Below are positions 1 to 25,000 of a stretch of 27,239 bases of DNA, piece after piece. The stretch lies in IMG/VR virus record IMGVR_UViG_3300037070_000230, positions 1 through 27,239 of that record; one strand, given 5' to 3'. Under the pieces are notes generated by a model. That model saw nothing but the letters and a program-made list of their open reading frames with translations, did not search any database and was not told the origin of the DNA. A program made the translations under genes and the position numbers. The first letter of the stretch is position 1, and each line of letters begins with the position of its first letter. Source of the DNA: a virus.

Positions 1-495
1 GAAAAAGGTGATCCCGGCGAGTCGATTGTCGGTGAACGCGGCGAAAAAGGAGATCCCGGCGAGTCGATCGTTGGCGATCGCGGCGAAAAAGGCGATCCCG
101 GCGAGCGTGGATTGCCCGGAGAATCGATCGTCGGCGAAAAAGGTGACAAGGGCGACCAAGGCGAACGCGGATTGCCCGGAGAATCGATCGTCGGCGAGAA
201 AGGCGATCAGGGCGAGAGGGGTCTACCCGGAGAATCGATAGTCGGTGAACGTGGCGAGAAGGGCGACCAGGGCGATCGGGGCGAGCAAGGCTTGCCCGGT
301 GAATCGATCGTCGGCGAGCGCGGCGAAAAAGGCGACCAAGGTGAGCGTGGCGAGCGAGGCTTGCCCGGAGAATCGATCAAAGGCGAGACCGGCGAGCGCG
401 GCCCGCCGGGTGAATCAATCAAGGGCGAGAAAGGTGACGCTGGCGAATCTATCAAAGGTGACAAGGGCGATCGCGGAGATCAAGGGCTTCAAGGT
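1..495 (+). repeat. Degenerate tandem repeats encoding collagen triplets
   Basis: Nine ESI-encoding units start at 19, 61, 121, 181, 232, 301, 370, 412 and 445. Unit lengths are 42, 60, 60, 51, 69, 69, 42, 33 and 51 nt, each equal to 15 nt plus a multiple of 9. Each unit therefore has one GESI(V/K) element followed by 2 to 6 Gly-X-Y triplets. Near-identical DNA (GAATCGATCGTCGGCGA) recurs, which should favour recombination and copy-number change. The array continues upstream of the window. Confidence 0.9.
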
Positions 496-987
496 GTCTT
501 TCGAGCGCCGGAACCGTGGTCGGATAAGGTCCACTACACGGGCGATCTGGTCTTCCATGCAGGCTCGACGTTTTGCGCTCAGTGCGATACGGCGCGCCAG
601 CCGCCACACGCGGACTGGGCGCCGGTTGCGTTGCGCGGCACGGACGGCCTGACCGGCGAACTGTGCGGCGCCTATGACCCGCAGCGGTCCTATTTCAAGA
701 TGGATAGGGTCTCCCAGAACGGCAGCGAATGGATTGCCAAGTTCGATGCCCCCGGCGAACTTCCAGGAGACGGCTGGATGCTCGGCGCGCGTGCGGGTTC
801 CCGTGGCCATCCGGGTAAAACCGGAGGACAAGGCTTGAAGGGTGATAGGGGTGACCCTGGGATCGGCTTCCTGAAAATCTCCCGTCAGGACTGGTCGTAC
901 GTGATCGAATTGACCAACGGCGATACCATCATGCTGGACATGGAACCGTTCTTCAGACGGTACGATGGGGAGACGCGCGGCGGATGA
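1..987 (+). CDS. Collagen-like phage structural protein (5' end missing)
   Basis: The frame is open from base 1 to a TGA at 985-987, so the start lies upstream of the window. About the first 165 codons are Gly-X-Y triplets interrupted nine times by a GESIV/GESIK element. Then come two short aromatic domains (about 512-644 and 673-795) with the spacing W..Y..GD.V...G..F.A....P...W, which resembles carbohydrate-binding CBM5/12-type folds. A second short collagen stretch (about 796-860) and a beta-rich tail of about 40 residues follow. Collagen-like phage proteins form trimeric fibres or decorations. Its place directly before the head-tail connector suggests a head or neck fibre rather than a tail-tip fibre; that is an inference. 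It overlaps the next gene by ATGA. The collagen call is sure; the structural location is not. Confidence 0.85.
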   Translation, partial: EKGDPGESIVGERGEKGDPGESIVGDRGEKGDPGERGLPGESIVGEKGDKGDQGERGLPGESIVGEKGDQGERGLPGESIVGERGEKGDQGDRGEQGLPGESIVGERGEKGDQGERGERGLPGESIKGETGERGPPGESIKGEKGDAGESIKGDKGDRGDQGLQGVFRAPEPWSDKVHYTGDLVFHAGSTFCAQCDTARQPPHADWAPVALRGTDGLTGELCGAYDPQRSYFKMDRVSQNGSEWIAKFDAPGELPGDGWMLGARAGSRGHPGKTGGQGLKGDRGDPGIGFLKISRQDWSYVIELTNGDTIMLDMEPFFRRYDGETRGG

Positions 988-2686: not shown

Positions 2687-3080
2687 GATGGCGAAGGCGC
2701 AGTTGGAGATCGCCAAGTCGCTCGCGGAGAAGATGCGCAAGCGGGCGCCGGTCGGTCTGGCGAAATGGCGCAAGCCGGGACGCAGGCCGGGGCATTACCG
2801 GCGATCGATCGTCGGCAAGAGGCTGAAGCCAGAGGATCTGGGAAAGGGCGGAACGCTTAAGGGCATGAAGTCTGGAACGACAGATCCTTTTGCGACCGGC
2901 ATCTACGGGGAATTTATCTGGCACTGGATTGAATTCGGCGTGCGTAAATCGCCAGCGCGACCGCATATCTTCCCGACCTACCGGGCGGAACGAAAGTACT
3001 TCAAGCGTAAATTGCAGGCCGTCCTGAAGAAAGGTCTGAAGAAGGCCACGGCTCCTGTACCAGTGGCGGCTGCGGCATGA
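2607..3080 (+). CDS. HK97 gp10-like tail completion/neck protein
   Basis: This 157-residue basic protein looks like the HK97-gp10 family (tail-component, neck). It has an N-terminal helix (VEMAKAQLEIAKSLAEKMRKRAPV), followed by the characteristic 'RAPV...G...P G.YRRSI' strand, then G..GEF...W.EFGV....ARPHIFP near residues 95-120, and a basic C-terminal helix. The family sits at the head-tail interface. The start at 2607 is preceded by GAGGCAAG; the next ATG (2646) would remove a usual N-terminal strand. The gene overlaps the previous one by 80 nt and the next by ATGA. Confidence 0.85.
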   Translation: MAFTAKWENRNSVMARLRAVGPNIEVEMAKAQLEIAKSLAEKMRKRAPVGLAKWRKPGRRPGHYRRSIVGKRLKPEDLGKGGTLKGMKSGTTDPFATGIYGEFIWHWIEFGVRKSPARPHIFPTYRAERKYFKRKLQAVLKKGLKKATAPVPVAAAA

Positions 3081-3490
3081 GCATCGATTGCACGCTTGAA
3101 CTTCAGGGGGCGATCCTCGCCCATCTGAAAGCGGACCCGGCTGTTTCGGCTCTGGTCAACGGGCGCATCTACGACACGGTCCCGCCCGAAACGCAGTTTC
3201 CGTACATCAGCTTCGGGCCAGTCGATGACAACGAAGAGGATGCCGACTGCATCTACAGCAGCATGGTCTATCAGCAGATCGACGTGTGGTCGCGTGACGT
3301 CGGCTATCCCGAGGTCAAGCGCATCGCAGGCGCGGTGCGCGCCGCTCTGCACGACAAAGAGGTCGAACTGGCTCTGACGGAGAACGCTCTGGCCGATATC
3401 CGCCACCGGCAGACGACGACGGTCCGTGACCCGGACGGGCTGACCAATCACTCGATCATGGGGTTTGAGGCGCTGATCGAGCGCCGCTAG
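3077..3490 (+). CDS. Tail terminator protein (DUF3168 family)
   Basis: The 137-residue product has the DUF3168 pattern: an N-terminal helix (LQGAILAHLKADPAV), then ALVNGRIYDTVPP...FPYISFGP, a strand ending in YQQIDVWS, a helix EVKRIAGAVRAALHD, and a final strand in which G..ALIERR ends the protein. DUF3168 proteins are homologues of lambda gpU and SPP1 gp17: hexameric rings that cap the finished tail tube at the head end and stop its growth. The gene starts in an ATGA overlap with the gp10-like gene and is followed directly by the tube genes, as usual. Confidence 0.9.
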   Translation: MSIDCTLELQGAILAHLKADPAVSALVNGRIYDTVPPETQFPYISFGPVDDNEEDADCIYSSMVYQQIDVWSRDVGYPEVKRIAGAVRAALHDKEVELALTENALADIRHRQTTTVRDPDGLTNHSIMGFEALIERR

Positions 3491-3508: not shown

Positions 3509-4219
3509 ATGGCTGTTCCCGTCACTGCGAAATTTGGCAAGATGAGGTTGTTGCTCGGGGTTTTTCCCGATGTGACGGCCCCTCTTCAGGCTACAACGAA
3601 CAGCAACCCGACGCGCTGCACGGTGCTGGTTGGCGACATCACCAAATTCAAGAACGGCAAGACGGTCGTTATCGCGGGTGTCACCGGCACCGGCATGACC
3701 GTGGCCAATGGCACCTGGACGATTACCAACGTCAACAATCCCGCCAACACGTTTACGCTGGTCGGTTGCAATACGGCTGGCGCGGCTACGCCTGCGGCGG
3801 TTGTCGGCAACGCGACAACCAAGAACGAAGCCGGTGTTGTGACCTACGCGACACCATGCGGCCTGACGTCGAAGAACGCCACGATCTCCAAGAACCTCGC
3901 CGAGGTTTCGATCCCAGACTGCACCGACGAAGATGCGCCGATCTGGCTGGGACGTGATGTGCAGAGCCTGTCCTGCACGATTTCGGGCGACGGCGTTGCC
4001 GCGGCGGAATCGGTTCCGGCGTGGGATGTCGCGGCACTGTCGACGGACTCCGTGCCGATGAAAGTGGAACTGGAATTCGGTGTCGGCAACAAGGTGATCA
4101 CCGGGCGCTTCCATGTCGACTCCGAGGCTTTCGCTGCCGACGCAGGAGGGCGCGTGACCCTTGCGATCAACGCGCAGAGCGACGGCGCCTGCACGGCTGT
4201 CTGGACCGCCACGCCTTAA
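3509..4219 (+). CDS. Major tail tube protein paralogue 1 with inserted FCCH-like domain
   Basis: The 236-residue product has two parts. The tube fold is split: residues 1-18 (TAKFGKMRLLLGV) and about 113-236 (TPCGLTSKN..ISKNLAEVSIPDC, WLGRDVQSLS, GRFHVDSEAFAAD.GGRVTLAINAQSDG). It matches short tail tube proteins of alphaproteobacterial siphophages, which form hexameric rings. Residues about 28-112 are an extra beta-rich unit with GKTVVIAGV, GTWTITNV and FTLVGC, the pattern of the FCCH domain that annotation pipelines report in many phage proteins (named after ubiquitin-activating E1). It would project from the tube surface; that is an inference. A strong AAGGAG site precedes the ATG. The C-terminal part is about 94% identical by eye to copy 2. 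Confidence 0.8.
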   Translation: MAVPVTAKFGKMRLLLGVFPDVTAPLQATTNSNPTRCTVLVGDITKFKNGKTVVIAGVTGTGMTVANGTWTITNVNNPANTFTLVGCNTAGAATPAAVVGNATTKNEAGVVTYATPCGLTSKNATISKNLAEVSIPDCTDEDAPIWLGRDVQSLSCTISGDGVAAAESVPAWDVAALSTDSVPMKVELEFGVGNKVITGRFHVDSEAFAADAGGRVTLAINAQSDGACTAVWTATP

Positions 4220-4246
4220 TCCAATCAAGCCATCGAGGAGAAAGTC

Positions 4247-4948
4247 ATGGCCGTCCCAACAACCGCCAAATTTGGCAAAATGCGTCTTCTGCTCGGGGTA
4301 TACCCCAATCTTGTCGTCAACCTTGTCACCTGCACGAATACCAACCCGACGCGCTTCACCGTGTCGGCGGGTGACATAGCCAAGTTCAAGAACGGCAAAC
4401 AGGTCACGATCGCGGGCATCATCGCGGCGGGCATGACCGTCGCCAACGGCACCTGGACAATTACCAACGTCAACAACCCGACTAACAACGTCACGTTGGT
4501 CGGCTGCAACACGGCGGCGGCGGGTGCTGCTTCCGGCGCGGTTGGCACTGCGACAGTCAAGGACGAGGCTGGCGTAGTCACCTACACGACGCCGTGTGGC
4601 TTGACCTCCAAGAACTGCACGATCAGCAAGAACCTCGCCGAGGTGTCCATACCGGACTGCACCGACGAGGACGCGCCGATCTGGCTTGGCCGTGACGTTC
4701 AAAGTCTATCCTGCACGATCTCGGGCGACGGCGTTGCCGCGGCGGAATCGGTTCCGGCATGGGATGTCGCGGCGCTGTCCACGGACAGTGTGCCGATGAA
4801 AGTCGAGATCGAGTTCCCGGTTGGAATGAAGACAATCACCGGGCGTTTCCATGTCGATTCAGAGGCATTCGCCGCCGACGCGGGAGGGCGTGTGACGCTT
4901 GCGATCAACGCCCAGAGTGACGGTACCTGCACCGCTGTTTGGGCATAA
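4247..4948 (+). CDS. Major tail tube protein paralogue 2 with inserted FCCH-like domain
   Basis: The 233-residue paralogue of the preceding gene has the same architecture: a tube N-strand (1-18), an FCCH-like insertion (about 26-110, with KQVTIAGI, GTWTITNV and VTLVGC), then the tube body. By eye only about 7 of the last 120 residues differ from copy 1, whereas about a third differ in the insert and N-terminus. GAGGAG stands 6-7 nt before the ATG, in a leader duplicated from copy 1. Which copy is the main tube subunit cannot be decided from sequence: both look intact and both have good translation signals. A mixed tube, or one copy used for a tip ring, is possible. Confidence 0.8.
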   Translation: MAVPTTAKFGKMRLLLGVYPNLVVNLVTCTNTNPTRFTVSAGDIAKFKNGKQVTIAGIIAAGMTVANGTWTITNVNNPTNNVTLVGCNTAAAGAASGAVGTATVKDEAGVVTYTTPCGLTSKNCTISKNLAEVSIPDCTDEDAPIWLGRDVQSLSCTISGDGVAAAESVPAWDVAALSTDSVPMKVEIEFPVGMKTITGRFHVDSEAFAADAGGRVTLAINAQSDGTCTAVWA

Positions 4949-4954
4949 TCCCTT

Positions 4955-5671
4955 ATGGCGACTCCCGTCACTGCCAAGTTCAGCAAGATGCGGATTTGGC
5001 TGGGCGCGTATTCCGATCTGGTTGTTCCAGTGGTCTCGGTGTCGAATACGCTCCCGGCGATCTGCACAGTCAGTGCGGCGAATATCCCCAAGTTCATCGA
5101 CGGCAATCAGGTGACCATTCTAGGCATCACTGAGCCTAACGCTATGGACATAGCCAACGGCACTTGGGTGATCGCTTCAGCTAATGTCCCGCCCAATACC
5201 TTCACGCTGACCGGCGTGGATTGTACGGGCGGTGCATACCCGGCAACGATCGGCATTACCGCGACAGTCAAGAACGTGGCTGGCGGCGTCACCTACATGG
5301 CACCGTGCGGCCTCGTCTCAAAAAACTGCACGATCAACAAGAATCTGTCGGAGCACGCCATTAAGAATTGCCAGAATCCATCCGCGCCAATGTGGCTCGG
5401 ACGAGAGGTTGAAAGCCTCTCCTGTTCGATTACGGGCGAAGGTGTCGCCGCTGCGGAATCCGTTCCCTACTGGCACACCGCCACGCTCTCGATCGCCAGC
5501 GTGCCGATGAAGGTCGAGGTGGAGTTCGCCATCGGCAGATCAACTATTACGGGGTTGTTCCACGTCACGTCGCAGGCGTTTGGCGCTGAAACCGGAGAGC
5601 GGGTTTCGCTCGGAATCAATGCGCAGTCGGACGGCGACTGCACCGCCGTATGGAGCACCACAGCCTTATGA
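4955..5671 (+). CDS. Major tail tube protein paralogue 3 (divergent) with FCCH-like insert
   Basis: The 238-residue third copy begins TAKFSKMRIWLGA and keeps the tube landmarks (PCGLVSKNCTINKNLSE, WLGREVESLSCSITGEGVAAAESVP, PMKVEVEF, GINAQSDGDCTAVW). It also keeps a diverged insert (about 28-112) with NQVTILGI, NGTWVIASA and FTLTGV. It differs at positions fixed in copies 1 and 2, for example the SIPDCTDEDAP loop is replaced by AIKNCQNPSAP. It lacks a Shine-Dalgarno and starts 6 nt after copy 2, so it is probably made by coupling at a lower level. That fits a minor or specialised ring, which is an inference. Its stop overlaps the chaperone gene (ATGA). Confidence 0.75.
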   Translation: MATPVTAKFSKMRIWLGAYSDLVVPVVSVSNTLPAICTVSAANIPKFIDGNQVTILGITEPNAMDIANGTWVIASANVPPNTFTLTGVDCTGGAYPATIGITATVKNVAGGVTYMAPCGLVSKNCTINKNLSEHAIKNCQNPSAPMWLGREVESLSCSITGEGVAAAESVPYWHTATLSIASVPMKVEVEFAIGRSTITGLFHVTSQAFGAETGERVSLGINAQSDGDCTAVWSTTAL

Positions 5672-6048
5672 GCCGCAGCGCTAAAATCACCGCGCCTTTC
5701 GCAGGCGAGGAACATGAATTCCGCATGGCCTTCGGCGATATCATGCGGCTTCAGGAGAAACTGGATCTTGGACCGTACGAGGTCGCCACACGCCTGCATG
5801 CCGGAACGTGGCGGGTTGAGGATGTGCGCGAAGTTATCCGCATCGGTCTGATCGGCGGCGGCATGGAGGTGCCGCGAGCAGCGCGAATGGTCAAGGATTT
5901 TGTCGAGGCCAATCCGATCCTCGAGAGCCTGGCGCTAGCCCAGGTCATCATGCAGGCAGGCCTTGTCGGCGCCCCGGATGAACCCGTGGGGGAATCGGCA
6001 GCGGCGGGAACACCGAACGAATCGACGATCTCCCAAACGGCAAATTAA
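5668..6048 (+). CDS. Tail assembly chaperone (GTA-gp10-like, zero-frame product)
   Basis: The 126-residue product matches the short tail assembly chaperone family represented by GTA gp10 (TAC-11-like). It begins with a strand (ITAPFAGEEHEFRMAFGDIMRLQEKLDLGPYEVATRL is diagnostic in outline: a small beta N-terminus, then R.....G...LE), continues with WRVEDVREVIRIGLIGGG, and ends in a helix and a Ser/Thr-rich tail. These proteins hold the tape measure protein while the tube forms around it. I chose the ATG at 5668, in ATGA overlap with the tube gene; the ORF is open six codons further upstream, within that gene. It is the lambda gpG equivalent, followed by a -1 frame extension. Confidence 0.85.
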   Translation: MSRSAKITAPFAGEEHEFRMAFGDIMRLQEKLDLGPYEVATRLHAGTWRVEDVREVIRIGLIGGGMEVPRAARMVKDFVEANPILESLALAQVIMQAGLVGAPDEPVGESAAAGTPNESTISQTAN

Positions 6049-6281: not shown

Positions 6282-6379
6282 GGTTATCGGTCAACCCGGC
6301 GGTAACGCTCTTTTTAGGTCTCGCGCCGGGGCCAGGACCAAGAGGACCGATTAGGTGGCAACCGACTCTGAAAAACTAA
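6278..6379 (+). CDS. Possible 33-residue ORF between chaperone and tape measure
   Basis: An ATG overlapping the T-domain stop (ATGA) opens a 33-codon frame, MRLSVNPAVTLFLGLAPGPG..., which ends at the TAA 6377-6379, 25 nt into the tape measure gene. It fills the 73-nt gap that would otherwise be the longest here. A hydrophobic LFLGLAPGPGP stretch gives it a protein-like look. No family is recognised and no independent ribosome binding site is seen, so this is a low-confidence call. Confidence 0.35.
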   Translation: MRLSVNPAVTLFLGLAPGPGPRGPIRWQPTLKN

Positions 6380-9300
6380 TTTTAAGCATCTCGGCTGACG
6401 TCACCGCCGTCAAGCGTGCGCTCGCCAAGATGTCGACCGACACCACGACTACCACCGATGGCATGGTTCGTGATTTCAAGAAGGTCGATCTGGCAGTCAA
6501 GTACTTCGCCGCCAACACGAACAAGGTCGGCGCGGCTATGCGGGACACGACTCGGCAGACGCAGGCCGCGACCGTCAATCTCACTGCCCAGATGAACGAC
6601 ATTGCCCAGCAATTCCAGGCGGGCACGTCGATGTATACCATCATGGCCCAACAGGGCAGTCAGGTGACGCAGGCGTTGCAGGCCGCCGGCGGCGGCATGC
6701 TTGGGTTTGCCAAGACGATCGGCGGCGCTCTCATGGGCATGCTGTCGCCGATGAACCTTGTGTCGATGGGCCTGATCGCGGTTACCGGCGTTGCCGTCTC
6801 ATACTTCAAGGAGTGGATGGAAGGCGGCGAACTATCTGAAAAGGAGATGAAGAAGCAGGTCGATACGCTCTACCAGATAGCTGACGCTTATGGCGACCTG
6901 TTGCCCGCCGTCAAGAAATTCGCCGAGGCACGAAGAGAGGCGGATGCGGCTGCGGATAGAAAGCAATCGACCGAACTGGCGATCGCCGAGGATTACAAGA
7001 AGCTTCAGCCTATTATCGATAAGCTTACTGCGTCGGTTAACGATTTCAACGCCGAGGTCGCACGCGGCAGCACGTCTCCTCAAGCCAAAGCTGGTATCGA
7101 GTCGTACATCCAAAATGTGAATGAACTGGTCACGGCGTTTCAAACGCACACCTTGACCGTTGAGGATGTGCAGCAAGTCTACGATTCACTGAACGACTCG
7201 TACCTGTCGAATACCGATGCTGCCGCCGGTCTGCGTACACAGTTGAACGAACTGATGCTCGTTGCGCGAGCGCAGGCCGAAGCCGATGCAAAGGCGCGCG
7301 AAGAGGCATCAGAGATTAATATTGAACGGAAGAAGGCGGCGGAGGACTACAAGAAGGCTATGAAGGAGATGCAGGGCATCTCCAAAAGTACTGCGACCGA
7401 AGTCGAGCATATTTGGCAAGTCTTCATCGAGATGATCAACAAGGCGCGGACCGAGGCCGAGAAGCTGCGGGCCGAGATTGAGCGCGACTATGCACTGGGC
7501 CGGCTAAACACCGAGTCGTTGGGCAATTTGGCTAGGGCGCAAGTCAGCAACGACATGGACGAGTACACAAGGCTCGTCATGGGCGCTGAATCAGGTGGAG
7601 ATGCTAACGCTCAGAATGCCGTTTCGACAGCGAGTGGCCAGTTCCAGTTTCTGGATAGCACGTTCAAAAAATACATCCCGTATTTGCAATCGCTGCCTGA
7701 GTTCGCCGGGCTTACGGCGCAACAAATCATGGCGCAGAAAAACAACATCGCGGTCCAGAAGGCTGCGTTCGAGAAATTCACGCAGGACAATGTCGAGTAT
7801 CTCGACAAGCACAACATAGAGGTCAACAACGCTACCAAATATATGGCGCATGTTCTTGGCGCTTCGGGCGCGCGGCAGTTGATGACTGCGGCCCCCGGTA
7901 CGTCTGTCTCAAGCATCTTCGGCGCCAAGGCGGCGGGGGATAATCCCAGCCTGCTTGGCGACCGCACGGTCGAGCAATCGATCGCGGCGTTCTACAAGAA
8001 GATGCGGACCGAGGAAGCGACGATTACGACGAAGGCTTCGCAACAGCGTGTCGATGACGCGCGCCAAGATGCCGAAATCCAAGGCAAGATCACCGACGCC
8101 TATGACGAGCAAGCCGCCGCCGAAGCGCAAAAGCTGAAGTACGCCGAACTGCGCCGCAACCTCGAACGCGACATGGAGGAAAAGGGCAGGGTGCCCACGG
8201 CGGAGCAGTACAAAGAGATCGAGGCGATCGCCAAGAAGCACGGCGAGACGGTTGGCCGCGAGGAAGGTACGAAAGCCGCCGAGAAAGAAGCCGAGGCGAA
8301 GAAAAAGGCGGATGAACAATCCGCGAAAACGTTCGAAGGCGCGATGCGGCGGTGGAAGGAAGAGACCGATTCGATCAACGCGCAAGAAGAGGCCATCGGC
8401 AATCTCGGCAAGAACATAGACGAGACGACGCGGAAGCGCGAGACAGCGCAGGCGGAACAGGCGATCCTTGCCGCAGCGGCGCGCGACGGGACAGCCGCCA
8501 CCAAGGAAGAGGCCGCAGCGGCGAAAGAAGTCGCGGCGGCTTATGGTCTGGCGCAGGGAAAGAAGGAAGGTTTCAGGCTAGCGACCAAAGGGGCGGAGAC
8601 CAGCGAATCGACGTTCGAAAGCGCGATACGGAAATGGAAGGAAGAGACCGATTCGATCAACGCGCAGGAACAGGCGATCGGTAATCTCGGCGATGCCATA
8701 GACGAGGTGACACGCAAGCGAGAGGAAGCGCAGGCACTGACGGCGATCCTCGCAGCCGCTGCCCGCGACGGGACGGCGGCTACCGAGGAAGAGGCCGCAG
8801 CGGCGCGCGAGGTGGCAGCGGCTTATGGTCTGGCGCAAGGAGCCAAGGAAGGCTTCAAGGACAAGACCAAGGAGATGTCCACCGAACAGAAGGAATTTTT
8901 CACCTTCGTTGCGGATACCGCCAAGACGGCGCTTGGCGGGTTCATCAACGATCTGCGGGAAGGCGTCGATGCGGGCGAGGCGTTCTCGAATATGCTCGAT
9001 CGAATTGTTGATTCCTTGATCAACATGGCGATCGAAACGCTGTTCAGCAAAGAGATACTAGGCACGCTGCTTGGTGGTCTTGGCGGTATCGGCGGTGGTA
9101 TTGCCGCGCCTGGAGCGGCAGCGGGCGGCACGGTCGGCATGGCTAGCCACGGCGACGGCAGATCATTCGCCCCATCGACATGGGCCGGTGCGCGGCGCTA
9201 CGCGAAGGGTGGCATGGCGGGCCTGCGGCCAGGTGAAGTGCCGATCATCGCGCATAAGGGCGAGGTGATCATTCCGCGAGATATCGTGGATCGCAATCGC

Positions 9301-9627
9301 GGCAAAGTGGTCAACATGCTCGAGGAACTGTACCTGCGCAAGGGGTGGTCCGACGCACCGAAATTTGCGACCGGCGGCGTGGTAATGTCTTCACCGGGAG
9401 TGAATATGCCGACGCCTGCCGCAGGCAGCAACGCGGTTGTCGGCAGCACGATCGACAACAGTGTGCATCAGCAGAACAGCATGACGATCGACATGGCGCA
9501 GACCGGAGCGGTGGCGGCGAGCAACGAAGACGCCAAGATTTTCGCGCTTAGAATCCAGAAGCTTGTGCAACTCGAAATGGTTCGCGAGAGCCGACCAGGC
9601 GGTCTGCTCCGCACTGGGAGGACATGA
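6355..9627 (+). CDS. Tail tape measure protein with embedded lytic transglycosylase domain
   Basis: The 1,090-residue protein follows the chaperone pair and starts at GTG 6355, 8 nt after AGAGGA. N-terminal residues 1-110 resemble tape measure TMP_2-type proteins, with AMRDTTRQTQ and MNDIAQQFQAG...IMAQQGSQ. Residues about 112-156 are hydrophobic. Long coiled-coil, Glu/Lys/Ala-rich regions lie either side of a domain at about 401-560 with GAESGGDANAQNAVSTASG.FQF, the pattern of transglycosylase (SLT-like) domains; Glu412 is the likely catalytic residue. Residues about 659-846 are a duplication. The C-terminus (LGGLGGIGGG, RRYAKGGM..L.PGE.PIIAHKGEVI) is typical of tape measures. It sets tail length and can help penetrate the cell wall. 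Confidence 0.93.
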   Translation: MATDSEKLILSISADVTAVKRALAKMSTDTTTTTDGMVRDFKKVDLAVKYFAANTNKVGAAMRDTTRQTQAATVNLTAQMNDIAQQFQAGTSMYTIMAQQGSQVTQALQAAGGGMLGFAKTIGGALMGMLSPMNLVSMGLIAVTGVAVSYFKEWMEGGELSEKEMKKQVDTLYQIADAYGDLLPAVKKFAEARREADAAADRKQSTELAIAEDYKKLQPIIDKLTASVNDFNAEVARGSTSPQAKAGIESYIQNVNELVTAFQTHTLTVEDVQQVYDSLNDSYLSNTDAAAGLRTQLNELMLVARAQAEADAKAREEASEINIERKKAAEDYKKAMKEMQGISKSTATEVEHIWQVFIEMINKARTEAEKLRAEIERDYALGRLNTESLGNLARAQVSNDMDEYTRLVMGAESGGDANAQNAVSTASGQFQFLDSTFKKYIPYLQSLPEFAGLTAQQIMAQKNNIAVQKAAFEKFTQDNVEYLDKHNIEVNNATKYMAHVLGASGARQLMTAAPGTSVSSIFGAKAAGDNPSLLGDRTVEQSIAAFYKKMRTEEATITTKASQQRVDDARQDAEIQGKITDAYDEQAAAEAQKLKYAELRRNLERDMEEKGRVPTAEQYKEIEAIAKKHGETVGREEGTKAAEKEAEAKKKADEQSAKTFEGAMRRWKEETDSINAQEEAIGNLGKNIDETTRKRETAQAEQAILAAAARDGTAATKEEAAAAKEVAAAYGLAQGKKEGFRLATKGAETSESTFESAIRKWKEETDSINAQEQAIGNLGDAIDEVTRKREEAQALTAILAAAARDGTAATEEEAAAAREVAAAYGLAQGAKEGFKDKTKEMSTEQKEFFTFVADTAKTALGGFINDLREGVDAGEAFSNMLDRIVDSLINMAIETLFSKEILGTLLGGLGGIGGGIAAPGAAAGGTVGMASHGDGRSFAPSTWAGARRYAKGGMAGLRPGEVPIIAHKGEVIIPRDIVDRNRGKVVNMLEELYLRKGWSDAPKFATGGVVMSSPGVNMPTPAAGSNAVVGSTIDNSVHQQNSMTIDMAQTGAVAASNEDAKIFALRIQKLVQLEMVRESRPGGLLRTGRT
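8329..8892 (+). repeat. Tandem 282-nt (94-codon) duplication inside the tape measure gene
   Basis: Unit 1 (8329-8610) and unit 2 (8611-8892) are in frame. Both encode TFE.A.R.WKEETDSINAQE, IGNLG..IDE.TRKRE, AILAAAARDGTAAT.EEAAAA and VAAAYGLAQG. The offset of 282 nt is the same at both ends: ACGTTCGAA at 8329 and 8611, and GCTTATGGTCTGGCGCA at 8539 and 8821. DNA identity is high, so the duplication is young or under strong constraint. Each extra unit would be expected to lengthen the tail. Confidence 0.92.
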
Positions 9628-19514: not shown

Positions 19515-19835
19515 ATGAAGATAAACTTCGGAGAGACCATTACCCAGTACGACGGCTCGCCTGTCATCGATCAGGACGGCAAGCCGGTGACACTCAGCAC
19601 CATCACGGTCAACGCGATGTCGCAGGTCAAGGAGGGCATGAGCGCCAATGACAAACTCAGGAACGCGCGGCTCGCCGAAAAAGCTTACGATGCTGAAGAG
19701 TGTGAAATGACCCCGGAAGAGGTGACAATCATCCGGGCTGCTATCGGCGAGATGTACCCGCCGCTGGTCGTGCTCAAATCTTTCCGGTTACTCGGCGGCG
19801 AACCTTCGCTGCCCAAGGCGGTGGCAAATGGTTGA
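19515..19835 (+). CDS. Conserved small phage protein of unknown function
   Basis: The 106-residue product begins with a beta hairpin (YDGSPVIDQDGKPVTLSTITVNAM) and continues with helices (SANDKLRNARLAEKAYDAEECEMTPEEVTIIRAAIGEMYPPLVVLKSFRLL is the outline). I associate this pattern (DGKPV.DQDG.PVTL...A, then a KY.L-like helix, and IG..YPPLVV..A..LL) with an unnamed protein family widespread in proteobacterial phages. A strong ribosome binding site precedes it and it overlaps the next gene by 8 nt. No enzymatic motif is visible. Confidence 0.7.
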   Translation: MKINFGETITQYDGSPVIDQDGKPVTLSTITVNAMSQVKEGMSANDKLRNARLAEKAYDAEECEMTPEEVTIIRAAIGEMYPPLVVLKSFRLLGGEPSLPKAVANG

Positions 19836-20106
19836 CTCTAATGACTATCCTGACATCCCTGAAATCGTGACGCAGTGGAACGTCGGCGATCGCGTCGAAC
19901 TCGCCAACAATCCAACCGGATCGACTGGCGGGACGGTACTGGAAATTGCCAACATCATGCGCGGCGAGAACACATTCGAAATCAGCTACCGTATTCAATA
20001 CGATGAAGGTGGCGAGGGCTGGCATCCCGAAGGCGCGCTAGTTGCCGATGACGACGACACTCCTCCGCCCCCGGAAGGCGGGGAGGACGAACCACCGCCT
20101 GAGTAA
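19828..20106 (+). CDS. Small SH3-like barrel protein B with acidic, proline-rich tail
   Basis: The 92-residue product has WNVGDRVELANNPTGSTGGTVLEI, an ISYRIQYDEGG strand, and GWHPEGALV, the same order of elements as the protein at 17912. It adds a low-complexity tail (DDDDTPPPPEGGEDEPPPE). It overlaps the preceding gene by 8 nt. The shared fold is my inference from pattern; the function is unknown. GC-rich Pro/Glu codons at the 3' end give an atypical composition. Confidence 0.65.
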   Translation: MVDSNDYPDIPEIVTQWNVGDRVELANNPTGSTGGTVLEIANIMRGENTFEISYRIQYDEGGEGWHPEGALVADDDDTPPPPEGGEDEPPPE

Positions 20107-20108
20107 CG

Positions 20109-20588
20109 ATGACCGAACAACCGCCCCAACCTCCCGTGCCGCAACAGCCGCCGGAAGGTTGGGTCGCGACCGTCGCTCATTTTGTCACCCACATGTCTTT
20201 GACGCAGGTGCTGATTCTGGCCTTGCTCATGGCCATCCTGATTCCGTCATATCTGGTTTGGAGAGCGCTGAACGATCCGGCCATGCTAGGGCGGTTTCTC
20301 TCGTCCTATGAGGAAATCACCAGCGATAAGATCCCATGCATCTTGAGGATTGCTAGCCTGCAAGGCGGCGGCGATCAGTTCGCAATCTCTTCCGGCTTCG
20401 CGGCGCAGGGATCGGATCAGTGGGTGGTGTCCGTGATTATGGATCGAAGGCCCAGTGAAACCGAGATCGCGTCGTACTGCGAAACTATTCAATTGCTGAT
20501 CGATTACATGCGAAGACCAGACGCCCCGGCACCGACCTTCCCGGACAGTGAAGATCCGATGATATGGCGATATCCGCCACCGCCGTGA
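20109..20588 (+). CDS. Single-pass membrane protein of unknown function
   Basis: The 159-residue product has an 18-residue Pro-rich N-terminus, one clear transmembrane helix (about residues 31-52, LTQVLILALLMAILIPSYLVW), and an unrecognised soluble domain of about 100 residues with VVSVIMDRRPSETEIASYCETIQLLIDYM near the end. It has no lipobox or enzyme motif. Its position just before two small secreted proteins and two holin-like membrane proteins suggests a lysis or envelope role, which remains a guess. The start codon is 3 nt after the previous stop. Confidence 0.65.
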   Translation: MTEQPPQPPVPQQPPEGWVATVAHFVTHMSLTQVLILALLMAILIPSYLVWRALNDPAMLGRFLSSYEEITSDKIPCILRIASLQGGGDQFAISSGFAAQGSDQWVVSVIMDRRPSETEIASYCETIQLLIDYMRRPDAPAPTFPDSEDPMIWRYPPPP

Positions 20589-20776
20589 GGGTTGTGATCG
20601 TGACGCTGGCGATGATGATTCCAGGCAATTCGGAAGAGCCGGTGACTTTCACTGCCAGCCAGTGCCGCTTCCTACGTCAGCACGGCGTGGATGTGACGGA
20701 CATCTGTTCACCGACAGAACCAGTGTCAAAACAGGATCGGCCAAGACCGCCGCCTAAGAAACCACCGAAGCGATGA
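20585..20776 (+). CDS. Small secreted protein with QCRFL...IC motif
   Basis: I prefer GTG 20585, which overlaps the previous stop (GTGA) and gives MRVVIVTLAMMIPG, a short signal-like N-terminus parallel to that of the next gene; an ATG at 20564 in the same frame would add seven residues. The 63-residue product continues ...TASQCRFLRQHGVDVTDIC and ends in a basic, Pro-rich tail (RPRPPPKKPPKR). The two cysteines, 19 residues or so apart, recur in the following lipoprotein. The proline-rich tail recalls outer-membrane spanins, but no other spanin feature is seen. Function is unknown. Confidence 0.55.
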   Translation: MRVVIVTLAMMIPGNSEEPVTFTASQCRFLRQHGVDVTDICSPTEPVSKQDRPRPPPKKPPKR

Positions 20777-21300
20777 GATACCTGATCGTGCTGGCGTTGC
20801 TCGCTGGCTGCACGACGCCCGGTGTCGAACTGAGCGATGCGCAGTGCCGGTTCTTGCAGCGGCGCGGCATTAATACGAACATCATATGTCGGCGTCATCC
20901 CGGCGCCACGCGAACGAAAGAGGCGGCAGCGGCAGCGCCGGAAAGAGGTGGCGCGCCGGTCACGCCGACAGGAGGGTCAGGTGGACGGTCTGCCGACAGT
21001 GGTGGCGGTGGTTCTGGTAGCGGCGGTGGTTCTGCTGGCGGTGGTTCTTCTGGCGGGAGCGGGGGCGGCAATCCGGGAGGCGGTGGCGGCTCGGGTGGTG
21101 GTGGTAGCGGAGGCGGTGGCGGAGGCGGAGGCGGCGGGGGTGGCGGCACGCCTGGCGGCGGTGACGGCGGCAACAGCGGTCACAACCCAGACGGCTCCAC
21201 GGGGAGACCGGGTAATCCGGGGCAAGGAAACAAACCGGATGCCAATCCGGGTCATCCCTCTGACGGCGACAAACCCGGCAACGGCAAGGGGCGAAAGTAG
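20773..21300 (+). CDS. Gly-rich lipoprotein with QCRFL...IC motif
   Basis: The 175-residue product starts MRYLIVLALLAGC: a short signal peptide with lipobox LAGC, so Cys13 would be lipidated. Residues 22-40 (SDAQCRFLQRRGINTNIIC) match the preceding gene's motif. A basic Ala-rich linker follows, then more than 60 residues that are mostly Gly with Ser/Asn (about 75-135), and a Pro/Gly/Asp/Lys-rich C-terminus. The ATG overlaps the previous stop (ATGA). Likely periplasmic or outer-membrane anchored. The long flexible tail could span the periplasm; whether it is a spanin, a superinfection factor or something else is open. Confidence 0.6.
   Translation: MRYLIVLALLAGCTTPGVELSDAQCRFLQRRGINTNIICRRHPGATRTKEAAAAAPERGGAPVTPTGGSGGRSADSGGGGSGSGGGSAGGGSSGGSGGGNPGGGGGSGGGGSGGGGGGGGGGGGGTPGGGDGGNSGHNPDGSTGRPGNPGQGNKPDANPGHPSDGDKPGNGKGRK
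20986..21176 (+). repeat. Poly-glycine-encoding G-rich tract
   Basis: GGT/GGC-dominated simple sequence (GGTGGCGGTGGTTCTGGTAGC and variants) encoding the lipoprotein's glycine tail. The + strand has many runs of two to six G, which could form G-quadruplexes and is prone to replication slippage. The reverse strand reads as a false poly-proline ORF. Confidence 0.8.
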
Positions 21301-21498
21301 GTGAGCGATGATCTTGCTCGAGGCCTCATCGTGGTCCTGCTTATCGGCTCCTTCATCGCGCTCATGGCCACCGTTCTGATGGGCATGATCAAGATTGAAA
21401 ATCCTGAGATCGCTAAACTTATCGGCGCAGTTTTCGGTTATGTTACCGGGATGTTGTCCGCCGTGTTCGCGCATTATTTCCGCAAGAACGGAGTTTGA
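21301..21498 (+). CDS. Small two-helix membrane protein, holin candidate
   Basis: The start is GTG 21301, directly after the previous stop; no other start suits the frame. The 65-residue product has two transmembrane helices (about 8-29, GLIVVLLIGSFIALMATVLMG, and about 38-57, LIGAVFGYVTGMLSAVFAHYF) separated by a short charged loop (IKIENPEIA) and ends in a basic tail (RKNG). Size and topology suit a class II holin. No muralytic enzyme lies beside it, so the lysis role is tentative. Confidence 0.65.
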   Translation: MSDDLARGLIVVLLIGSFIALMATVLMGMIKIENPEIAKLIGAVFGYVTGMLSAVFAHYFRKNGV

Positions 21499-21501
21499 CA
21501 G

Positions 21502-21714
21502 ATGCTCTCCGCCATTATCACCCTGACCCTCTACATCGTCGTCCTCCTGATCCTGTGGTGGCTGATCGACTACCTGCTGAAGTCGATTCCAGTTGCAGAT
21601 CCACCCGCTCGGTTTATCCGAATCGGGGCGACCGTCGTGTTCACGCTGATCGTCGTGCTGCTGATCCTGAGATTGCTGGGAGTCGGCGATATCCCCATGC
21701 CTCGCCTAGCCTGA
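21502..21714 (+). CDS. Small two-helix membrane protein (Thivi_2564-like)
   Basis: The 70-residue product has two transmembrane helices (about 5-26, IITLTLYIVVLLILWWLIDYL, and about 41-61, IGATVVFTLIVVLLILRLLGV) joined by a loop with KSIPVADPPARFIR. It resembles short Thivi_2564-type membrane proteins found in proteobacteria and phages. It lies 3 nt after the preceding holin candidate; the two could be a holin/antiholin pair. The start ATG at 21502 overlaps nothing and has no strong ribosome binding site. Confidence 0.65.
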   Translation: MLSAIITLTLYIVVLLILWWLIDYLLKSIPVADPPARFIRIGATVVFTLIVVLLILRLLGVGDIPMPRLA

Positions 21715-21729
21715 CGGAGGAACTCAGCC

Positions 21730-22083
21730 ATGATGCCCGGTAATTTCCCGCTGACAATCTACCGCAGCGACACGGCTCGCTGGTCATTCACCTTGTGGTC
21801 CGATGCCGCGAAAACCATCCCAACGGATCTGACCGGCGCTACAGCGGCGGCGCATATTCAGCAGGCCAACACTTCACTGAAACCGCCTGTCGTGCTGACC
21901 TGCACGATCGCACCGCCGAACACCATCAATATGATTCTGGTGTCCGACGTGACAGTCGGCACGCCAGCGCGCGGCCATCAGGGCCGATGGGACATGCAGG
22001 TAACCTTCCCGAACGGTGAGGTGCAGACGGTGCTCGCGGGTACGGTCGACATCGTCGGTGACGTTACGAGGATCGCGTCATGA
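21730..22083 (+). CDS. BppU-like N-terminal domain baseplate/fibre protein
   Basis: The 117-residue protein begins with YRSDTARWSFTLWSDAAKTIPTDLTGATAAAHI, a pattern seen in small phage proteins with the immunoglobulin-like N-terminal fold of BppU. The latter half ends HQGRWDMQVTFPNGEVQTVLAGTVDI, typical of the same family. GGAGG at 21716-21720 supports ATG 21730 (a second ATG is at 21733). It directly precedes, with ATGA overlap, the very large fibre and is probably its mounting or assembly partner; that is an inference. Confidence 0.65.
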   Translation: MMPGNFPLTIYRSDTARWSFTLWSDAAKTIPTDLTGATAAAHIQQANTSLKPPVVLTCTIAPPNTINMILVSDVTVGTPARGHQGRWDMQVTFPNGEVQTVLAGTVDIVGDVTRIAS

Positions 22084-25000
22084 ACCAAATCACGGTCATC
22101 GAGACCAATGGCGCAGAGGCGATCTACGTCGAGGCTTTCGATATGGTGGACGGCGTCGTTCGCGTCGATGTCATCTACCCGCCGCCCGCGATCAGTTTCG
22201 TTGAAATTCAGGTTCCCGGCATTCAGGGACCGCAGGGACCGCCCGGTGAAAGCGATCTGCACAACGCGAAGCTGACCGGAATATCGACGCTCTACAGTGA
22301 TGATCCCGGTGCGCTAGGCGTACAGCAGGACATCTTCCACGATTCAGAATCGCCTGCCGTTAACGATATTCCGTATCAGCAGACGCTCTATGTCCGCGAC
22401 GACGCTGGCACCAAGCTGCCGATGGGCGGGATTAAATATACGTATTCCTGGGTCGAGGCGGGTTTTGCCGGCGGTTACTGGACCGTCCAGAGTGGCGACG
22501 GCATGGGCGGTCTGATCGACAGCGTCATGTTCGATTCGAGCGGCGTCTGGGCCAAGGGGAAAAACACAATCGGTCAGCCGGAATTTCATCTGTGGAAAGA
22601 TGTCGCGCCGACGAACAACATGCTGATCGGCAAGATGATCTGGAAGACGCAGAAACTTGCCAGCCCGACGACTATTCAGGTTTACACCGAAATCCACGGC
22701 AAGATCGAGAGCACTGTAGCGGGGCTGGAAAAGGGTGTCCTTGTCTTTCGAGCGGCTGGCGGTACAAACGGTCTACCCGGCGATTTCGCCAGTTTCAGCC
22801 GGACGCTAATCCGGTTCTGGGATGCACCGCTTACCATCGAATCGACGGACGCAGGCGCGACGGCGCTGCCTAATTTCACTATCTATCGAAACTCGGCCTC
22901 GCCTCTTGCCGCCGATCTGCTCGGTAATATCCTGTTCACCGGCAAGACCAGCACGGCGGCGGTCACCACTTACGCTTCGATCGACTCCAAGGCGCTGGTC
23001 GTCACCAACGCCGCGCAGGATGGCGAACTGCAATTAAAGACGGTGGCGGCGGGCACGCTCACCGCACAGCTTACGATCAACAAGACCAGCGTGCTGGTCA
23101 ATCCAAAGCTGGTGACCAAGCTGTCGGCGACTACCGCCGCCGGATTGAATCTGCCGCACGGCGCGGCGCCGTCCGCGCCTGTCGATGGCGATGTCTGGAC
23201 GACGACCACTGGCGTGTACTGGCGCGTCAACGGGGCTACGCTCGGTCCTATGGCGGGCCTGCCGATCGCGCAGTCCAACGTGACAAATCTCGCCACGGAT
23301 CTTGCTGCGAAAGCCAACGTCGCCGGTCAGGCATTCACTGGGCGCGTAACCGTTCCGCCGCATTCCGGGACGACAGCCTCGTTTTGCATAGGTCCGGGTT
23401 CCGGTTCGCCTTCGGCGCTTATCGATGGCGATCTCTTCATAACGACCGCCGGTAATTTCCTCTATCGCGCAAACGGCGCGACCCAGTTCGTCGCCAACCT
23501 TGGGCAGACGCAGACGTTCACGGGCGCGAAAACTTTCAGCCTGAAAACGACATTCGCTACGCCGACGACGGCGATCGCGTCGTTCAACACGCCGCATGGC
23601 GTTGCGCCTTCGGCTCCTGTCGACGGCGATGTGTGGACGACGACCGCCGGAATATACGTTCAGATCAACGGTGCGCCGGTCGGACCGCTTGGCCGATCCG
23701 GCATAGCGGACTGGGCGGACATAACGAGCAAGCCAGCCACGTTCCCACCGACGCTTCCAATCCCCTCGAGCGGCATTACCGGCCTCGACGCGGCGCTGGC
23801 CGGAATGGTGCTGAAGGCCGGGGATACGATGACCGGCAAGCTGACCACGCCGCCAAGCACGGCAGCGGGCGCGGGCTTCAACTGGGGGCAGGGTAATTCG
23901 CCAGCTACCATTGTTGACGGTGATGTTTGGCAAGTCGGCGCGACGGTTCGCTATCGCGCTTCCGGCGTGACCAACGAACTGGTGAACCTCGCCAGCGCGC
24001 AGACGATCACCGGCATCAAGACGTTCAGCGCCAAACCGATCTTCGTGGCCAGCACGACGGCCACGGCGTCGATCAACATTCCGCTCGGCGCTACGCCAAC
24101 GACGCCGGTCAACGGCGATGTCTGGTTCGTCGGCAATCAGTTCTTCATCAAGGGTTCGTCGGCCACAGCGTACGAGTTGGCCACGGTTAACGGCACGCAG
24201 ACGATCACCGGCATCAAGACGTTTTCGAATAAGACCACCTTTGTCGCCAGTGCGACGGGGCAGGCATCGATCCTGATTCCTCCGGGTGTCACGCCTTCAT
24301 CTCCCGCCGATGGTGATATCTGGACGACATCGGTCGGCATGTACGTCCGCATCAATGGCGTTGTGGTCGGACCGCTCGCCGCTTCCGGCGGAGCGGTGGA
24401 CTGGACCGTGGTGACAGGCAAGCCCGTGACGTTCCCACCGTCGCTGCCTATCGCGCAGTCGGGCATCACCAATCTGGAAACCGATCTTGCGCTGCTGGCT
24501 CCCTTGGCCTCTCCGGTCCTCACTGGCACGCCTACCGTGCCGACTGCGGCTCCAGGCACCAGCACCACGCAGATCGCGTCCACGGCCTTCGCAGCCGCCG
24601 CAGCGACAGCCGCCGCGACGGGAGTCGCGAACAGCGCCGTGCTCAAAGCCGGTGACACGATGTCCGGCGATCTGATCATTGCCAAAGCCACGCCGTTTCT
24701 GAGTCTCGACAAGGCGGCAGCGGGGCAGGAAGCCGGTATCTTCATAAAGACCGGCGGCGTGACGCGCTGGAGCATCACATCGAATACCGCCGCCGAGGCT
24801 GGCAGCGATGCGGGTTCTAATCTCGCTATCAATTATCATGCCGACAACGGAACGGTGAAAGGCACGATCAACTTCACCCGCGCCGATGGCAAATTCACCG
24901 CCAAGAACATCTCGTCTGCGGGCTACATTCAAAGCACCCCAACGTCGGGCAGCGCCAATTTCTACCTCGATCGAATTGCGGGGCAGAGCGGCCTTATCAA

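Follow-up and report, generated by a model that had tools for sequence, protein, structure and literature searches.

Decorated tail tubes are known from several phages. The major tail protein gp41 of phage T1 (PDB 9L0F) is described as a beta-sandwich (residues 2-15, 95-113 and 135-218) with a hairpin (114-134) and a domain outside the tube (16-94), in a tail tube of about 34 rings (PMC11945409). Lambda gpV, T5 pb6 and the long form of SPP1 gp17.1 have an extra tube domain too, but there it is a C-terminal Ig or FN3 domain, whereas domain 2 of YSD1 is internal but lies between alpha1 and beta4, not between beta1 and beta2 (PMC8718954). The tube protein of the Rhodobacter capsulatus gene transfer agent (RcGTA) has been called the simplest major tail protein (PMC8718954). 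Here we analyse three tandem open reading frames (ORFs) that exactly fill positions 3509-5671 of a 27,239-nucleotide stretch of DNA, the window, from an uncultured virus (IMG/VR record IMGVR_UViG_3300037070_000230). Each is a full-length tail tube gene. With a probability of roughly three in four, their products are siphophage tail tube subunits that each carry a domain of the FCCH type, known from E1 enzymes, between strands beta1 and beta2.

An insert after the first strand of the tube protein

The genes, all on the plus strand, encode copy 1 (P0001, 236 amino acids, 3509..4219), copy 2 (P0002, 233 amino acids, 4247..4948) and the diverged copy 3 (P0003, 238 amino acids, 4955..5671). All three match PF06199 Phage_tail_2 (59.5, 62.3 and 42.3 bits, cut-off 23.8 bits) and PHROG major tail protein families. 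The PF06199 match covers residues ~104-229 only, and thus the N-terminal ~100 residues contain the first strand and something extra. The extra part is an insert of ~90 residues (~18-107), directly after the first strand in each copy; on the plus strand it occupies residues about 18-107 of copy 1 (window ~3560-3829) and about 19-107 of copy 2 (window ~4301-4567).

Relatives of the tube proteins were collected in four viral scans (23, 4, 50 and 79 loci, the last from the best 80 of 116) and one genome scan (1 locus), many of them shared between scans. To extract the tube genes, 66 sources, window included, were parsed by pattern and 28 loci by profile, L070 being in both sets. Two cut-off genes (L021, L023) and a second locus of the L003 contig (L027) were dropped and identical sequences merged, which left 77 distinct tube proteins. 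The insert is present in 13 and absent from 64; insert-bearing proteins served as queries, and therefore this ratio is not a frequency in nature. The inserted tubes come from 11 phages, with the three window copies counted as one phage. The single relative from the genome scan has no insert.

In the uninterrupted tubes of 148-150 amino acids, MAQPTTAKFGKMLIEIGD is joined to VYSAPCGFTSK via about 5 residues, where the window tubes have ~90. In the AlphaFold2 model of copy 2, DSSP assigns beta1 to residues 12-18, the insert to about 19-107 and beta2 to 112-117/119-135. The empty-site relatives and the model agree that the tube core is interrupted by a beta-rich insert, as proposed in an earlier note on this DNA, and the DSSP assignment bears out the placement of the insert inside the protein, following the first strand. 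The boundaries given there (a core split at 18 and 113, an insert at 28-112) are accurate to a few residues, but the domain starts nearer 19 than 28.

Among the relatives, the insert is present or absent as one unit. Among the window copies it is under purifying selection, with 0.25-0.55 nonsynonymous substitutions per site (dN) versus 0.94-1.47 synonymous ones (dS). As 11 phages carry it, always as a unit and under purifying selection in the window, chance is not a credible explanation.

A tree of the 77 tubes was built from 148 columns; columns filled in less than 60% of the rows, and hence the insert itself, were left out. The distribution of the insert on this tree needs four changes, three of which are forced by the starred branches; the mean for shuffled data is 12.3. 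The window copies form one clade (98/94), which is joined with 19 uninserted tubes at 100/97, and copy 3 has a long branch (0.61). This topology should be read with that branch in mind and with the small number of columns for so many rows. The simplest reading of the tree is that the insert was gained or lost several times, and that the triplication took place inside the window lineage after the insert had been acquired.

Two groups of related loci (L007/L008 and L060/L061/L074) have flanks that are about 99% alike, while their segments containing the tube and chaperone genes are 78-79% alike. It looks as if a tube-plus-chaperone cassette had been exchanged between strains.

Predicted fold of the insert and the T1 precedent

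One of the three subunits, copy 2, was modelled with AlphaFold2 from 34 aligned sequences. The mean predicted local distance difference test score (pLDDT) is 85.3 and the predicted template modelling score (pTM) 0.67; among the nine ten-residue blocks of residues 21-110, eight average at least 90 and the other 83. The core aligns with the RcGTA tube chain 6toa_G (Z 14.8, 130 residues, 4.0 A) and thus has the tube beta-sandwich fold. The RcGTA protein (Rcc01691, PDB 6TOA/6TBA) shares this core, but its chains have 130-134 residues and no insert. Residues 20-106 of the model align with residues 212-292 of human UBA6 (Z 11.0, root mean square deviation (rmsd) 2.1 A, 79 residues, 19% identity). 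We take this part of UBA6 to be its FCCH domain, in agreement with the match of Pfam E1_FCCH to the same region of the relatives.

A slightly wider stretch of copy 2 (4295-4585, plus strand) was also folded alone from 13 aligned sequences (pLDDT 86.8, pTM 0.74). In a Foldseek search with it, E1 enzymes fill the top 18 rows (best E 9.1e-4, the sole row under 0.001); chain 9jlf_E of phage FCWL1 is 19th (E 0.017) and T1 chain 9l0f_G 34th (E 0.075). VIA-align gives Z 10.6 for UBA6, 9.1 for residues 11-101 of T1 9l0f_G (87 residues, 3.6 A) and 8.7 for FCWL1 9jlf_E, with clearly unrelated rows at about 7. Overall, the UBA6 matches have Z 10.6-11, rmsd 2.1-2.6 and 79-83 residues. None of the matches listed (50 Foldseek and 50 VIA-align rows) is recognisable from its title as an Ig domain, although absence from these is not exclusion. 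Parts of phage endosialidases also match the insert model (phi92, 4HIZ 255-338; the NF mutant, 3GVJ 424-506; Z 7.2-7.8). However, those proteins are enzymes, and the match is near background, since riboflavin synthase gives similar values (Z 7.0-7.2).

The models support an independent beta-rich domain with the E1 FCCH fold. The structural comparison suggested in the earlier note, a predicted subunit run through Foldseek, gives E1 FCCH domains as the best PDB matches, and the outcome that the note named as contrary to it, a segment built into the barrel or one resembling no separate domain, is not what was found. Indeed, it is hardly credible that the segment belongs to the barrel of the tube: its position inside the gene is all that speaks for it, whereas the uninserted relatives keep the tube sequence without it and the segment folds alone. 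The insert is FCCH-like in fold and is not a member of the Pfam family, as it lies outside any E1 enzyme and the Pfam cut-off is not reached. It shares its fold with the FCCH domains of UBA6 and UBA1 (PF16190) but has no E1 context, and no link to ubiquitin is implied. Among the literature matches, seen in part, no paper pairs FCCH with a tail tube, and those on FCCH domains and phages concern, judging by title and the opening of the abstract, ubiquitin or SUMO enzymes.

The same arrangement occurs in T1. Like the window proteins, gp41 is a tube subunit, of ~220 amino acids, with a domain of ~79 residues following strand 1; its core, however, belongs to PF08813 Phage_tail_3 and not to PF06199. 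With the whole copy 2 model as the query, the three top-ranked chains in Foldseek are all from phages: 9jlf_E, 9l0f_G and 9lbn_L (235-236 columns, rmsd 14-15 A). By title they come from the FCWL1 head-to-tail interface, the T1 tail tube, and the connector and proximal tail of phiXacJX1. Such a high rmsd over so long a match would be expected if each domain matches but the two are oriented differently relative to each other. By their titles and the match, the chains of FCWL1 and phiXacJX1 are presumably tube proteins as well.

Profiles point in the same direction. T1 gp41 matches PHROG 584 with E 1.2e-96. Residues 24-110 of copy 3, that is, the insert part only, match positions 21-99 of this profile (E 2.3e-4); none of the window copies matches it over its full length, and copies 1 and 2 are not listed at E <= 1. 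One relative (L032) matches over 19-214 of 218 positions (E 3.3e-9). PHROG 584 is found at E <= 1e-8 in 31 of 398 sampled Pseudomonadota genomes and in one of 14 controls (Caulobacter vibrioides). Of the 35 matching rows, 20, from 19 genomes, extend over the greater part of the profile; the rest are confined to its insert or core part. By these profile matches, T1-type proteins seem to be fairly common in the sampled Pseudomonadota. In a set of T1 gp41 and nine such proteins from the sampled genomes, five (L112, L113, L114, L116, L100) match E1_FCCH at E <= 1, none above the cut-off. A tblastn search of 50,697 phage records with the first 110 residues of the L004 tube protein gave a weak match to a "phage stabilization protein" (E 0.3) and a match to beta1 only. 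Thus single-sequence searches fail to tie the insert to T1, and PHROG profiles and structure are needed.

FCCH-like stretches also occur outside tube genes. By eye, they are seen in the sampled genomes in phage-like ORFs of 426 and 659 amino acids (L119, L122) and in a 659-amino acid ORF resembling a surface or pilus-type protein (L121). FCCH- or PHROG 584-like stretches outside tube genes also lie at G004:C1:8753-9058 and 7058-7264, in the record behind L032. The FCCH-like domain may be a general add-on module.

Several observations count against an FCCH-type, outward-facing domain with a binding role. E1_FCCH (cut-off 29.5 bits) is not reached by any insert, the best score being 25.5 bits (the L004 insert). 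Sub-cut-off matches of inserts alone have E 1.4e-5 and 7.3e-5 in relatives L004 and L006; the copy 2 insert (searched as 4298..4579, plus strand) has E 0.1 and 13.1 bits, and the inserts of L003 and L005 have no match. Three of 12 inserted tubes scanned whole match below the cut-off, which, like the five matches in the T1 set, speaks for the FCCH reading, but the three whole window proteins do not match at all. NCBIfam yields only sub-cut-off matches, those of two relatives being to ubiquitin-activating enzyme E1 TIGR01408 (E 0.006 and 0.02), and PDB sequence searches with the inserts gave nothing credible. T1 gp41 itself has no E1_FCCH match at E <= 1, its profile comparison with the inserted tubes is weak (probability 6%, E 0.0058, insert only), and the T1 authors themselves call its domain Ig-like (PMC11945409). 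The outward orientation is deduced from the corresponding position, and a pTM of 0.67 leaves the domain orientation open. Finally, no binding activity was found reported for any FCCH-like phage domain.

Three diverged tube genes and their surroundings

Identity to copy 1 is 82% for copy 2 and 57% for copy 3. Copies 1 and 2 are 94% identical in the core and 63% identical in the insert, and 33 of their 42 differences fall within residues 18-106. Within the insert, loops are not enriched in variable positions (14 of 41 positions vary in loops and 19 of 48 in strands or helix). The whole-gene dN/dS values are 0.132/0.974 for copies 1 and 2, 0.364/1.542 for 1 and 3, and 0.343/1.606 for 2 and 3; dS is near saturation, which makes the distances rough. 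The respective ratios of about 0.14, 0.24 and 0.21 indicate purifying selection on all copies.

A single tube gene suffices in the other relatives. In a core-profile search of 95 sources (the window, the viral loci and L029), 92 have one tube gene, whereas the window and two other IMG/VR assemblies (L001, L002) have three each; no locus extends beyond 4 kb to either side, and many are shorter. In addition, 12 of 12 matching phage records have one tube place. This might suggest that the extra copies are redundant duplicates undergoing decay. However, decay is improbable: dN/dS is well under 1 in all pairs, no copy contains a stop or frameshift, and the duplications are old (dS about 1.0-1.6). 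The triplets of L001 and L002 are identical to that of the window over all 8,699 bases compared, and as these assemblies may stem from related samples, they are not fully independent.

PF06199 is found at E <= 1e-5 in 76 of the 398 genomes and in two of the 14 controls. No intact adjacent PF06199 pair is listed among the 398; in one genome (G274), two adjoining PF06199 pieces look like one broken gene. In another, two adjacent genes are PHROG 584-like in the core part of the profile only (G392:C19:56752-57117 and 57133-57531), so tandem tubes are not unique. Plasmids gave no match for copy 1, and the literature matches listed, seen in part, include no paper on tandem tube genes by title. Three tube genes in a row look unusual. 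One further candidate was discarded: IMGVR_UViG_3300045936_000063 has a tube locus at each of its two ends (L007, L061), which blast suggests, but does not prove, to be strain alleles at overlapping ends of one contig and not two gene copies.

The sequences upstream of copies 1 and 2 resemble each other and contain GGAG, which in copy 1 precedes the ATG. Copy 3 starts 6 bases after the stop codon of copy 2, without a clear ribosome-binding site. In the RcGTA tube, a long loop links successive rings (PMC7296036); the counterpart of this loop lies within residues 107-145 of copy 3, where 16 of 39 positions differ from copy 2.

Three diverged copies suggest a mixed tube. With almost identical cores and different inserts, copies 1 and 2 would co-polymerise and present two kinds of outer face. 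For copy 3, the diverged ring-to-ring loop and the lack of a clear ribosome-binding site make a role as a minor or end-ring subunit probable. It is possible, though we incline to doubt it, that copy 3 forms a special ring, for instance by the terminator or the distal tail protein, and is not part of the tube body. Its changed loop region, its long branch, a 38-residue stretch with three acidic residues instead of six and the lack of a clear ribosome-binding site would fit such a ring, but its core is still 64-67% identical to those of copies 1 and 2 and its two cysteines are retained. A fuller picture, in which the tail is a heteropolymer of three interchangeable subunits with diversified FCCH-like outer domains and a patterned or mixed adhesive surface, copy 3 marks one end, and T1-type outer domains generally have the FCCH fold and not the Ig fold, is rather unlikely as a whole.

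Two cysteines are present in all 77 tubes; in P0002 they are residues 117 (beta2) and 138 (long loop), encoded at 4595-4597 and 4658-4660. T1 gp41 also has exactly two (103 in the sandwich, 121 in the hairpin), and it is reported to form a disulfide between rings (PMC11945409). A T1-like disulfide was considered and set aside: five aligned members of the T1 family (L099, L100, L101, L107, L110) lack both T1 cysteines, and the similarity is at most convergent.

By Pfam and PHROG matches, the tube genes lie downstream of an HK97-gp10-like gene and of a tail terminator or completion gene (3077..3490; PF11367, 122 bits; PHROG 176 tail terminator) and are followed by a single-copy gene of the tail assembly chaperone type (5650..6048; PF11836 Phage_TAC_11 (GTA-gp10), 78 bits; PHROG 8985). 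Next comes a 1090-amino acid ORF (6355..9627), a putative tape measure gene by position and length alone. The last three of these genes are on the plus strand.

Other features of the window and a related locus were observed in passing. A collagen-like protein with many GxxGE-type repeats is encoded at window 112-987 and at 15686-17335 of L124 (549 amino acids there), between a portal-like gene, identified by eye, and head-tail connector genes. A small ORF at 20773-21300 has a lipoprotein-like start (LLAGC) followed by a long, low-complexity stretch rich in glycine and serine. A repetitive, fibre-like ORF of at least 1720 amino acids, with repeats around PSAPVDGDVWTT, occupies 22080-27239 and runs past the end of the window.

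Orientation, function and comparison with known tubes

The beta1-beta2 loop is in contact with the external Ig domain of lambda and, in a type VI tube, with the sheath (PMC8718954). Hence the loop is likely to be exterior. As the insert occupies the corresponding position and the T1 gp41 domain lies outside, the insert should face outwards. The beta-sandwich parts would stack into hexameric rings, with the inserts studding the outer wall. If tail length follows the tape measure in the same proportion as in T1 (ORF 19547-22420, 957 amino acids, 34 rings), a tape measure of 1090 amino acids gives a rough estimate of about 39 rings or 230 subunits.

The role of the insert is less clear. We lean, tentatively, to weak multivalent contact with the host surface or environmental polymers; binding to the host is plausible. 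The insert may instead be structural, bracing the tube wall by packing on the neighbouring subunit or ring and stiffening the tube without any ligand. We rate the two roles about equally, each a little short of even odds. There are precedents, as domain 2 of YSD1 embraces the next subunit and the lambda Ig domain touches the beta1-beta2 loop of its neighbour (PMC8718954). However, copies 1 and 2 hold the core and vary the insert, a pattern that suits a surface facing shifting demands better than one used for packing, although the spread of the variable positions beyond loops means that this variation is not strong evidence either way. Moreover, close relatives do without the insert, and the T1 domain is described as lying outside (PMC11945409). 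Removal of the decoration lowered the activity of lambda about 100-fold and left SPP1 unaffected (PMC8718954), so either outcome is possible for the window phage. The insert comes and goes as a unit in related phages, and its clean removal could test its effect on adsorption or stability.

The earlier note had regarded an internal tube decoration as distinctive. This does not hold, since T1 gp41 already has this architecture in the corresponding place, YSD1 has another internal domain, and T1-type proteins appear fairly common. At least two families of tail tube proteins, PF06199 (the window phage) and PF08813 (T1), accommodate an entire domain in the beta1-beta2 loop. The T1 domain is now called Ig-like, and an FCCH-like fold assignment may name it better. 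With the insert architecture known from T1, the less ordinary part of the window is the set of three diverged tube genes, which, maintained together, would offer a natural way to test whether a siphophage tube can be a mixed polymer; T1 has one annotated major tail protein, whereas the window phage has three.

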